A stretch of 64,000 nucleotides of DNA from Halomonas sp. 'Soap Lake #6' (lineage in GTDB: Bacteria; Pseudomonadota; Gammaproteobacteria; Pseudomonadales; Halomonadaceae): NCBI RefSeq assembly GCF_003031405.1, contig NZ_CP020469.1:4402001-4466000 (forward strand), read 5' to 3'. Below the pieces are notes generated by a model. That model ran no database searches. It saw only the letters and a program-made list of their open reading frames with translations, and was not told the DNA's origin. Shown here one piece after another: positions 1,346-3,800 of the stretch (position 1 is the stretch's first letter; each line of letters opens with the position of its first letter). The position numbers and the translations under genes were made by a program.

Positions 1346-2539
1346 GTGGCTAAGGAAAAATTCGAACGTTCCAAACCGCACGTCAACGTCGGCACCATCG
1401 GTCACGTCGACCACGGTAAAACGACTCTGACAGCGGCTCTGACCCGTGTGTCTGCTGAGGTTTTCGGCGGTGACTGGCGTGCATTTGATACCATCGATAA
1501 CGCTCCTGAAGAGCGTGAGCGCGGTATCACTATCGCTACATCTCACGTTGAGTACCAGTCAGAAGAGCGTCACTACGCGCACGTTGACTGCCCAGGGCAC
1601 GCTGACTACGTCAAGAACATGATCACTGGTGCTGCGCAGATGGATGGCGCGATCCTGGTATGTTCTGCCGCTGATGGCCCCATGCCGCAGACTCGCGAGC
1701 ACATCCTGCTGTCTCGTCAGGTTGGTGTACCGTACATCGTTGTGTTCCTGAACAAAGCGGACATGGTCGATGACGAAGAGCTGCTTGAGCTGGTCGAAAT
1801 GGAAGTTCGCGAACTCCTCGACGAGTACGACTTCCCGGGTGACGACACTCCGATCATCATCGGTTCTGCGCTGATGGCTCTGAACGGCGAAGATGAGAAC
1901 GGCATGGGTACTACCGCCGTTACTAATCTGATCAAAGCTCTGGATGACTACATTCCTGAGCCGGAGCGTGCTATCGACCAGCCGTTCCTGATGCCGATCG
2001 AAGACGTATTCTCTATCTCTGGCCGTGGTACTGTTGTTACCGGTCGTGTAGAGCGCGGTATCGTTAAAGCTGGTGAAGAAGTGGAAATCGTGGGTATCCG
2101 CGACACCACCAAGACCATCGTTACTGGTGTTGAAATGTTCCGTAAGCTGCTCGACGAAGGTCGTGCAGGTGAGAATGTTGGCGCCCTGTTGCGTGGTACT
2201 AAGCGTGATGACGTTGAGCGTGGTCAGGTTCTGGCCAAGCCGGGTTCTATCAACCCGCACACCGTTTTCGAAGCTGAAGTATACGTACTGTCCAAAGAAG
2301 AAGGTGGTCGTCACACGCCTTTCTTCAAGGGCTACCGTCCTCAGTTCTACTTCCGTACCACTGACGTAACTGGTACTTGTGAACTGCCGGAAGGTGTTGA
2401 AATGGTAATGCCGGGTGACAACGTTAAGTTGGTTGTTACTCTGATCGCTCCGATCGCTATGGACGACGGTCTGCGCTTCGCGATTCGCGAAGGTGGTCGT
2501 ACCGTTGGTGCTGGCGTTGTGGCCAAGATCGTTAAGTAA
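1346..2539 (+). CDS. tuf: Elongation factor Tu
   Basis: EF-Tu delivers aminoacyl-tRNA to the ribosomal A site as a GTP complex. The 397-residue protein has the P-loop GHVDHGKT near residues 19-26, DCPGHADY (G3), and NKADMVD (G4). Domain II follows with [16 protein letters not shown], and domain III ends in [14 protein letters not shown]. The start is GTG at 1346, preceded by AAAGAGG. It follows fusA by 29 nt and is closed by the hairpin at 2561, so it is probably co-transcribed with fusA. Length matches the Pseudomonas type rather than the 394-residue E. coli type. A second tuf copy elsewhere is common in this group but cannot be seen here. Confidence 0.99.
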
Positions 2540-2560
2540 GCTGTTTACTTGACTGATCAA

Positions 2561-2584
2561 GGGGGCTCTTGCGAGCCCCCTTTT
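2561..2584 (+). terminator. Rho-independent terminator of str operon
   Basis: A perfect 8-bp stem GGGGGCTC/GAGCCCCC with a TTGC loop is followed by TTTT. It lies 21 nt after the tuf stop and before the promoter of the S10 operon, so it separates the two transcription units. Confidence 0.93.
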
Positions 2585-2605
2585 CTGCGCACCATCAGCA
2601 AATGT

Positions 2606-2634
2606 TTGACATGGGCTGTTGGCGTGCCTATAAT
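2606..2634 (+). promoter_or_regulatory. Sigma-70 promoter of the S10-spc ribosomal cluster
   Basis: TTGACA (2606-2611) and TATAAT (2629-2634) are both perfect consensus hexamers separated by exactly 17 nt. The G+C-rich stretch ATGCGC follows the -10 box, as expected of a discriminator in a stringently controlled promoter. It gives a 5' leader of about 55 nt before rpsJ, too short for an E. coli-like S10 leader. Confidence 0.93.
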
Positions 2635-2698
2635 GCGCATCCTTTGAATGCGTGGGTAGACGGCTCGCGCTGTCGACATCCATTGGAGTTTAGGGCAA

Positions 2699-3010
2699 AT
2701 GCAGAACCAAAAGATTCGCATTCGGTTGAAAGCGTTCGACCATCGCCTGATCGATCAGTCCACAGCGGAGATCGTTGAAACCGCTAAGCGTACTGGTGCT
2801 CAGGTTCGTGGACCGATTCCGCTGCCGACCAACCGCGAGCGCTATACCATCCTGATTTCACCGCACGTCAATAAAGATGCGCGCGATCAGTATGAGATTC
2901 GTACTCACAAGCGTGTGCTCGACATTGTTGAGCCGACTGAAAAAACTGTTGATGCGCTGATGAAGCTCGACCTCGCCGCTGGCGTAGACGTGCAAATCAA
3001 GCTCGACTAA
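2699..3010 (+). CDS. rpsJ: 30S ribosomal protein S10 (NusE)
   Basis: S10 is a small-subunit head protein and also the NusE component of transcription antitermination complexes. The 103-residue product starts [20 protein letters not shown] and has the family length. It is the first gene behind the strong promoter at 2606. Unlike the tightly packed genes downstream, it is separated from rplC by a 151-nt structured spacer (3011-3161), so its expression may be uncoupled from the rest of the operon. Confidence 0.98.
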
Positions 3011-3036
3011 TTACACTAGTCACTTTGCGGCCCAGC

Positions 3037-3059
3037 GCTCATTAATTTTTAGAATGAGC
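3037..3059 (+). promoter_or_regulatory. Hairpin in rpsJ-rplC spacer
   Basis: GCTCATT (3037-3043) pairs with AATGAGC (3053-3059) around an A/T-rich loop. A second hairpin, GCGCC-GTGA-GGCGC with a GNRA-type tetraloop, follows at 3070-3083. No T-run follows either, so they look like leader RNA structure rather than terminators. Confidence 0.6.
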
Positions 3060-3090
3060 AGCAGCCGCCGCGCCGTGAGGCGCCACACAA

Positions 3091-3150
3091 TGTGCTAGTG
3101 GAATGCTCTGGAAAGGGCAGCCATAGCGGGTGATAGCCCCGTACACTATA
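3091..3150 (+). promoter_or_regulatory. 23S rRNA-like segment upstream of rplC, candidate autoregulatory mimic
   Basis: This stretch reads like 23S rRNA domain I, about nt 268-330 in E. coli numbering. It shares with rRNA (recalled from memory) the blocks AGTGGAA, TCTGGAAAGG, GGGTGA and AGCCCCGTACAC in the same order and spacing. The rplC ribosome binding site (AGGAG, 3150-3154) follows at once. Ribosomal protein L4, encoded by rplD just downstream, assembles on domain I of 23S rRNA and is the autogenous repressor of the S10 operon in E. coli. An mRNA mimic of its target before rplC-rplD is therefore a natural regulator. A chance relic of rRNA recombination is the alternative. Confidence 0.7.
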
Positions 3151-3161
3151 GGAGACTGAGT

Positions 3162-3800
3162 ATGACTATCGGTTTAGTCGGTAAAAAGGCCGGGATGACC
3201 CGCGTCTTTACCGAAGATGGCGCTTCTGTGCCCGTGACCGTTATTGAAGTTGATCCTAACCGTGTAACGCGCGTTAAGACTCTTGAGTCTGACGGCTACG
3301 CAGCGGTTCAGGTCACCACAGGTTCTCGTAAAGCCAAACACCTCACCAAAGCGCAAGCTGGTCAGTTTGCCAAGGCGGGTGTTGAGGCTGGTCGTTCACT
3401 AATGGAATTCCGTCTTTCAGAAGGCGAAGAAGCTCCAGAAGTGGGTGGCGAACTCACCGTATCCCTCTTCGAAGCTGGTCAAATGATCGACGTGACCGGC
3501 ACCTCTAAGGGTAAAGGCTTCCAGGGTGCTGTTAAGCGCTGGAATTTCCGTACCCAAGACAACACGCATGGTAACTCCCTGTCGCATCGCGCGCCGGGTT
3601 CTATCGGCATGTGTCAGACCCCGGGTCGTGTATTTAAAGGCAAAAAAATGGCCGGTCAGATGGGTAATGCCCGTTGCACCGTACAGAGCCTTGAGATCGT
3701 CCGTGTCGACGCCGAGCGTAACCTGCTGCTGATCAAAGGTGCTGTTCCGGGCGCTCCCGGTAGTGACGTTATCGTTCGCAGCGCCGTGAAAGCTGGCTGA
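3162..3800 (+). CDS. rplC: 50S ribosomal protein L3
   Basis: L3 is an early-assembling large-subunit protein that reaches towards the peptidyl-transferase centre. The 212-residue protein begins [16 protein letters not shown] and carries the loop [24 protein letters not shown], which includes the glutamine that PrmB methylates in E. coli. The ATG at 3162 has AGGAG 7 nt upstream. rplD follows after 15 nt. It is the first gene downstream of the rRNA-like leader, so it would be first in line for any L4-mediated control. Confidence 0.98.

Follow-up and report, generated by a model that had tools for sequence, protein, structure and literature searches.

In Escherichia coli the ribosomal protein L4 (uL4) regulates the S10 operon at the levels of both transcription and translation, and a fragment of 23S rRNA that carries the uL4 binding site outcompetes the S10 leader for the protein, as outlined in a 2024 review (PMC10931766). 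Competition between the S10 leader and 23S RNAs for L4 is also described elsewhere (PMC7186457), and a study of 50S subunit assembly reports density for uL4 early after the formation of domain I (PMC9935924). According to the 2024 review, the L4 site of the E. coli type on the mRNA of this eleven-gene operon has been shown to be conserved in enterobacteria, Haemophilus and Vibrio, and not in Pseudomonas (PMC10931766).

A widely conserved candidate for control of the operon is the 63-nt element described here, which lies in the spacer between rpsJ and rplC and copies a junction of 23S rRNA domain I. We regard it as likely that the element is a translational operator bound by uL4, the binding and the repression being inferred.

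Gene context of the spacer element

The window analysed is a stretch of 64,000 nucleotides from Halomonas sp. 'Soap Lake #6'. Its S10 locus is encoded on the forward (+) strand, in the order rpsJ (S10; 2699–3010; Pfam PF00338, NCBIfam rpsJ_bact), the element, rplC (L3; 3162–3800; TIGR03625 L3_bact) and rplD (L4; 3816–4421; PF00573, TIGR03953 rplD_bact), so that rplC is the first gene past the element and rplD, encoding the proposed repressor, the second. The rpsJ–rplC spacer measures 151 nt, and the element occupies its 3' end. It lies in untranslated mRNA beside ribosomal protein genes, in an operon that encodes its presumed ligand, and 170 loci were found to have it at the same place in the rpsJ–rplC spacer. 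Elsewhere in the window we observed a TPP riboswitch (RF00059, 24392–24487, – strand, 74.5 bits).

A sigma-70 promoter of the S10 operon is predicted at 2606–2634 (+), with 12/12 consensus bases, and its end is 64 nt upstream of the start of rpsJ. A looser promoter pattern occurs 61–83 nt before rpsJ, mostly at 64, in all 37 Halomonadaceae-type loci (L010–L045 and L047, grouped by name and likeness). The closeness of the predicted promoter to rpsJ leaves little room for a long structured leader of the E. coli type. The preliminary description of this DNA placed the control element in the spacer that follows rpsJ, ahead of rplC, and not upstream of rpsJ, and the short predicted rpsJ leader fits that placement.

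Resemblance to 23S rRNA

When the element was cut out without flanks (cmscan query 3092–3148), positions 3093–3148 matched the Rfam model LSU_rRNA_bacteria (RF02541) at model positions 327–382, without gaps, at 34.6 bits and E 6.8e-10. The match spans an entire junction of domain I, formed by helices that we assign as H18, H19 and H20. The score stays below the gathering score of 50 that RF02541 sets for a large-subunit rRNA gene or fragment. With its flanks included, the element gives no 23S match in cmscan at the gathering score, nor at E≤10, which we attribute to a short inner piece of a long model being scored only when the query is cut there. No other Rfam 15 family was found in the spacer: a search of 2540–3400 at E≤10 returned two chance-level matches, both outside the spacer, the isolated element added to its 23S match a chance-level one to a group II intron (E 3.6), and eight relatives searched at E≤1 gave a single match, located outside the spacer.

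The resemblance is also visible by plain BLAST. Against the organism's own 4.8 Mb genome, 3081–3161 retrieved the leader itself and six further places, each with 86% identity over 43 nt and E 9.9e-8, the next matches being at chance level (E 2.2 and 4.1). The one of these six places that was checked with Rfam (L002) is 23S rRNA, and the matching stretch is identical in all six. Compared with this copy, 37 of the 43 nucleotides at 3101–3143 are the same without gaps, including all 24 of 3120–3143. In a blastn search of 5,426 E. coli genomes with 3085–3161 (limit E 10), 5,375 contained a match, at a median of seven places per genome, and all five of the matches listed are 23S; in the one of these that was inspected, 3091–3146 aligns to nucleotides 288–343 of the annotated 23S gene with 82.1% identity. 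The preliminary description had read the 60 nt at 3091–3150 as a mimic of 23S rRNA at the level of sequence, with the conserved blocks of nucleotides ~268–330 in their rRNA order. The sequence-level likeness and the blocks, their place and their order are borne out by these alignments, and the range has to be moved up by about 15–20 nt, to nearer 288–343.

A covariance model built from the leaders alone (R1), with 23S left out of its training, leads back to the rRNA. In the genome of the window's species it finds the leader, at 77 bits, and exactly the six 23S copies, at 56.2 bits each, the next match having E 0.37; a search of the window itself gives a single place, followed by a match with E 2.1. 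Among nine same-class genomes checked with the Rfam model, strong R1 matches lie inside 23S in eight (G270, G252, G184, G285, G196, G279, G223 and G250), and the weak matches outside 23S are a second one in G184 (E 0.59) and one in G249 (E 0.08).

Several observations bear on the age of the resemblance. The closing helix of the junction is GGC/GCC in the organism's own 23S and GUG/CAC in the leader, which is thus no fresh copy of its own gene; among 20 relatives examined, at least 13 likewise have GUG/CAC as the closing helix in their 23S genes (four of the 20 were not parsed). We compared leaders and 23S stretches across the window's species and 20 relatives from twenty families, all 20 of whose 23S stretches were confirmed by Rfam. 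In 20 of these 21 species none of 1,000 shuffles reached the leader–23S score, and in the remaining one (G014) two did. The possibility that each leader tracks the 23S of its own genome was rejected, own pairs being no better than mixed ones (permutation p 0.40 for the 21 species, 0.34 without the window's species). This result argues against ongoing gene conversion and speaks for an old element held under its own constraint, whether it arose by capture or by convergence.

Conserved secondary structure

The junction as printed with the Rfam match consists of a closing helix, GAA, H19, two nucleotides, CAUAG, H20, GUA and the other strand of the closing helix. The element repeats this layout part by part. 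Its P1, equivalent to the inner end of H18, pairs UAGUG (3096–3100, core GUG at 3098–3100) with CACUA (3144–3148, core CAC at 3144–3146). Then follow GAA, the P2 hairpin UGCUC-UGGAAA-GGGCA (3104–3119), counterpart of H19, the dinucleotide GC, whose G3120 pairs with C3137 in the loop of P3, and the stretch 3122–3143, which holds CAUAG, P3 (GGG/CCC with its loop) and GUA, corresponds to H20 with its linker and is identical to the organism's own 23S within the 24-nt run. The 3' strand of P1 stands directly before the ribosome binding site of rplC, in whose sequence AGGAG at 3150–3154 is the Shine-Dalgarno motif. Over 170 loci with 122 distinct elements, the end of the CAC core precedes the rplC start codon by a median of 15 nt (range 12–28), and an SD-like motif, sought with a broad pattern, lies a median of 3 nt past the core. 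The adjacency to the ribosome binding site that was first noticed in the window is shared by these loci.

The 23S structure, with the junction–loop pair added, was imposed on 42 leaders. Under this fold 99.8% of 546 cells are paired, with changes on both sides at 8 of the 13 pairs. None of 500 shuffles did as well on any of five measures, and slid-partner controls left 25–58% of cells paired; the slid controls preserve the relatedness of the sequences, which the shuffles do not. A wider set of 99 leaders (97 distinct), which was retrieved by the model as well as aligned with it and is to that extent biased toward the structure, has 99.5% of 1,126 cells paired and two-sided changes in 7 of 12 pairs. 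The covariation is most complete in P2, where all five pairs change on both sides, across the 42 sequences as across the 97. Two of the three P1 core pairs show two-sided changes, in few cells (two in the 42-leader set, five in the wider set). The junction nucleotide that follows P2 pairs with the final base of the P3 loop. This pair, which was no part of the model, is G-C in 95 of the 99 leaders and A-U in the other four, with no mixed combination; the pattern by which positives were picked required C or U in the loop and imposed nothing on the partner. At these two positions the 23S consensus reads a and u.

Other parts of the fold are less informative. P3 and the CAUAG pair are invariant among leaders, in part because the picking pattern fixed them, and for that reason they provide no covariation evidence in either direction. 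Unaided, RNAalifold pairs GUG with CAU and not with CAC, and, taken by itself, the element shows no unusual stability (z about –1.2), so P1 may need a ligand to form or may be wrong in detail. The length of P2 and the loops of P2 and P3 vary among leaders. Two leaders (L117 and L205) carry long insertions in the loop of P3 (H20) inside a preserved GGGU...AG-CCC frame, an indication that the tip of this loop is not read; R1 misses the first of them.

Phylogenetic distribution

The distribution of the element was surveyed with a core pattern sought in the rpsJ–rplC spacer, which occurred in 1 of 49,600 shuffled spacers. A sample of 145 genomes was drawn from the order of the window's species; 133 had an L3 place and 132 were readable. 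With the window's genome included, 107 of these 132 carry the element, and they belong to 35 of 45 families, many of which are represented by few genomes. Ten families lack it (f17, f19, f22, f26, f29, f33, f34, f36, f39 and f43, 24 genomes read), one is mixed (f25, with the element in three of four genomes) and the others are uniform. The 25 genomes without it, 24 from the ten families and one from f25, indicate that it is dispensable there.

Among named loci, taken as the best 80 by L3 similarity, 63 have the element, and the carriers include Halomonas, Vreelandella, Salinicola, Chromohalobacter, Kushneria, Oceanospirillum, Marinobacterium, Marinobacter, Pseudomonas, Microbulbifer and Amphritea besides others. 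The element is thus found in close relatives and also well outside Halomonadaceae. All 16 Vibrio loci lack it, as does one unplaced gammaproteobacterium, which together make up the 17 negatives of the 80. In other orders of the same class the core pattern was present in none of 36 readable spacers, and R1 had no match near rplC in 124 genomes with an L3 place, under stricter filters by which weak matches may be lost. In a sample of 150 genomes from the phylum, R1 matched at E≤0.01 in 33 genomes outside the order, in none of them beside rplC.

Six loci from other gammaproteobacterial orders (L226, L227, L231, L248, L257 and L258) share a different hairpin with a GGUCAAUCGWAAYC-like sequence, whose motif ends 23–32 nt before rplC and whose stem, judged by eye, varies in a compensating way. 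It may represent a second, unrelated leader candidate in the rpsJ–rplC spacer. An origin of this hairpin as a 23S copy was considered and dropped, since its local alignment to the 5' 1,834 nt of 23S was matched by shuffles in all six cases.

Upstream structures in Halomonadaceae

In the window the element is preceded by two further hairpins, at 3027–3068 and 3070–3083, and the region containing them (3011–3090) folds at –29.4 kcal/mol with z –3.9. Both had been pointed out from the sequence of the window, and both covary in Halomonadaceae. Across 36 Halomonadaceae-type spacers, 7 of the 14 pairs of hairpin 1 show two-sided changes, with 97.8% of cells paired in its outer part and 85.7% in its inner part, and two of the five pairs of hairpin 2 covary (22 G-C, 12 A-U and 2 other at one; 32 C-G and 4 U-A at the other).

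A further helix, P0, would compete with P1. The 5' end of the spacer has the form CACUAG-N-CAC (CACUAG-U-CAC at 3014–3023 in the window) and can pair with GUGCUAGUG at 3092–3100, which overlaps the 5' strand of P1 and would exclude P1 when so paired. Of 42 Halomonadaceae-type loci, 41 have the pattern CACTAG.CAC, which is absent from all other positive loci. Across 36 distinct spacers, eight of the nine P0 pairs are invariant and one is broken once, so P0 shows no covariation. The predicted fold depends on the stretch chosen: the best fold of 3011–3185 (–63.4 kcal/mol) contains P0, as against –59.8 kcal/mol when the five P1 pairs are forced, and the best fold of 3011–3161 (–56.5 kcal/mol, z –2.87) contains neither P0 nor P1. 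The idea that P0 is a general part of the element was rejected, as 73 other loci, with P1 taken from the model alignment, had a mean z of –0.34 and fell below –2 in five cases (23 loci were too short for the comparison). A P0/P1 switch is thus a possible arrangement, proposed at the level of this one family only.

Function and alternative explanations

How would such an element act? By comparison with 23S rRNA, the proposed spacer operator copies the H18/H19/H20 junction in sequence, in secondary structure and in one junction–loop pair. This junction, as a 53-nt fragment of domain I, is reported to be the L4 site in E. coli in a SERF study, and the choice of L4 as the reader is inferred from gene content together with the published mapping of that site. 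Left free by a shortage of 23S rRNA, uL4 would bind the operator as it binds domain I. A few nucleotides separate the 3' strand of P1 from the Shine-Dalgarno motif of rplC, and bound L4 could stabilise P1 and in this way block the 30S subunit. Translation of rplC, rplD and the coupled downstream genes would then drop until new 23S rRNA removed L4, and rpsJ, lying upstream, would escape direct control. In Halomonadaceae, P0 is predicted to hold the 5' strand of P1 in the unbound state, and the operator might there work as a P0/P1 switch.

Should L4 bind, the element would be a case of unusually literal rRNA mimicry, in which a model trained on leaders alone retrieves the 23S rRNA genes, and a comparison of leader and 23S would separate the nucleotides read by the protein from those kept for other contacts in the ribosome. 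A more speculative extension, to which we give a tentative place well below that of the operator itself, is that an ancestor of the order captured the 23S domain I assembly site into its S10 operon as a portable decoy for L4, possibly together with L24, and that Halomonadaceae turned it into a riboswitch-like P0/P1 switch thrown by a protein. If this were so, the operon would weigh early 50S proteins in their free form against the nascent 23S rRNA.

The alternative that fares best, at a low probability, is that another domain I protein reads the element, above all uL24, acting alone or with L4, in which case the leader would be a sensor of early 50S proteins. In a SERF study on L4, the 53-nt domain I fragment is also said to bind L24 independently. 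One study of 50S assembly names uL22, uL24 and uL29 as the first proteins on domain I (PMC9935924). Against uL24, the element sits in the S10 operon with rplD as the second gene past it, whereas L24 is described as encoded in the spc operon in E. coli, and the known regulator of the E. coli S10 operon is L4.

We think it improbable that the element is a structured RNA with no ligand, which would protect the mRNA, serve as an RNase processing site or set the rate of rplC initiation by its fold, the 23S fold having been borrowed once and kept. Conservation of structure and position would suit such a role as well. The nucleotides of the 23S junction and the junction–loop pair are kept, however, while the loop and length of P2 vary, which a protein-binding surface explains better, and the modest stability of the lone element is not what this explanation would lead one to expect.

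Slightly less probable still is that L4 acts here by transcription attenuation in the spacer instead of by a translation block, as it partly does in the E. coli S10 operon, where it is described as affecting transcription as well as translation. A strict scan of 2500–3300 for Rho-independent terminators found no such site; the scan passed over a G+C hairpin with four T's that follows tuf (2559–2584). In 170 loci the element abuts the ribosome binding site of rplC, which also points away from attenuation and toward the translational operator. A chance resemblance, or a stray 23S copy made recently by gene conversion, can be dismissed despite the 24 nt identical to the organism's own 23S, given the E values of 6.8e-10 and 9.9e-8, the occurrence in 35 of 45 families, the equal match of 21 species' leaders to their own and to others' 23S and the failure of shuffles in 20 of those species, with ancient capture left as a possible origin.

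Relation to known regulatory elements

Leaders of ribosomal protein genes that mimic rRNA are a known kind of element. As far as our searches show, what is new is this particular element, together with its location within the S10 operon, how deep its likeness to rRNA goes and its presence in the group for which conservation of the E. coli site was not demonstrated. We found no description of it in the literature searched, and its novelty is provisional, the search having stopped short of the likeliest prior sources.

The closest relative in function is the S10 leader of E. coli, with which the element shares the operon, the presumed repressor and the logic of competition with 23S domain I (PMC10931766). 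The two differ in position, as the E. coli site is a long leader before rpsJ and the Halomonas element lies between rpsJ and rplC, and in the 23S likeness, which here reaches the levels of sequence, secondary structure and a junction pair. Rho-independent termination has a site in the E. coli leader, and the strict scan found none at the present locus. The carriers differ as well: the Vibrio loci are without the element, and the 2024 review lists Vibrio cholerae, and not Pseudomonas, with the E. coli site (PMC10931766). Relative to helices 18–20 of 23S domain I itself (RF02541), which it matches without gaps over the full junction, the element is distinguished by being 56 nt in an mRNA spacer, by its sub-threshold score and by its variable P2 length and P3 loop.

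Two leader candidates reported from other lineages belong to the same operon family. The L4 Archaeoglobi leader (Eckert and Weinberg 2020, PMC7247131), whose structure was compared through Rfam only, also precedes rplC; it is rated borderline in that paper, whose Table 1 does not give it the star for rRNA-like motifs. The other is the rpsJ motif of Peptostreptococcaceae (Narunsky 2024, PMC11109978). The operators of L1, S8 and L20, as they are described, likewise resemble the rRNA site of the same protein and concern a different protein and a different rRNA site in each case; that of S8 also resembles the present element in lying inside its operon.
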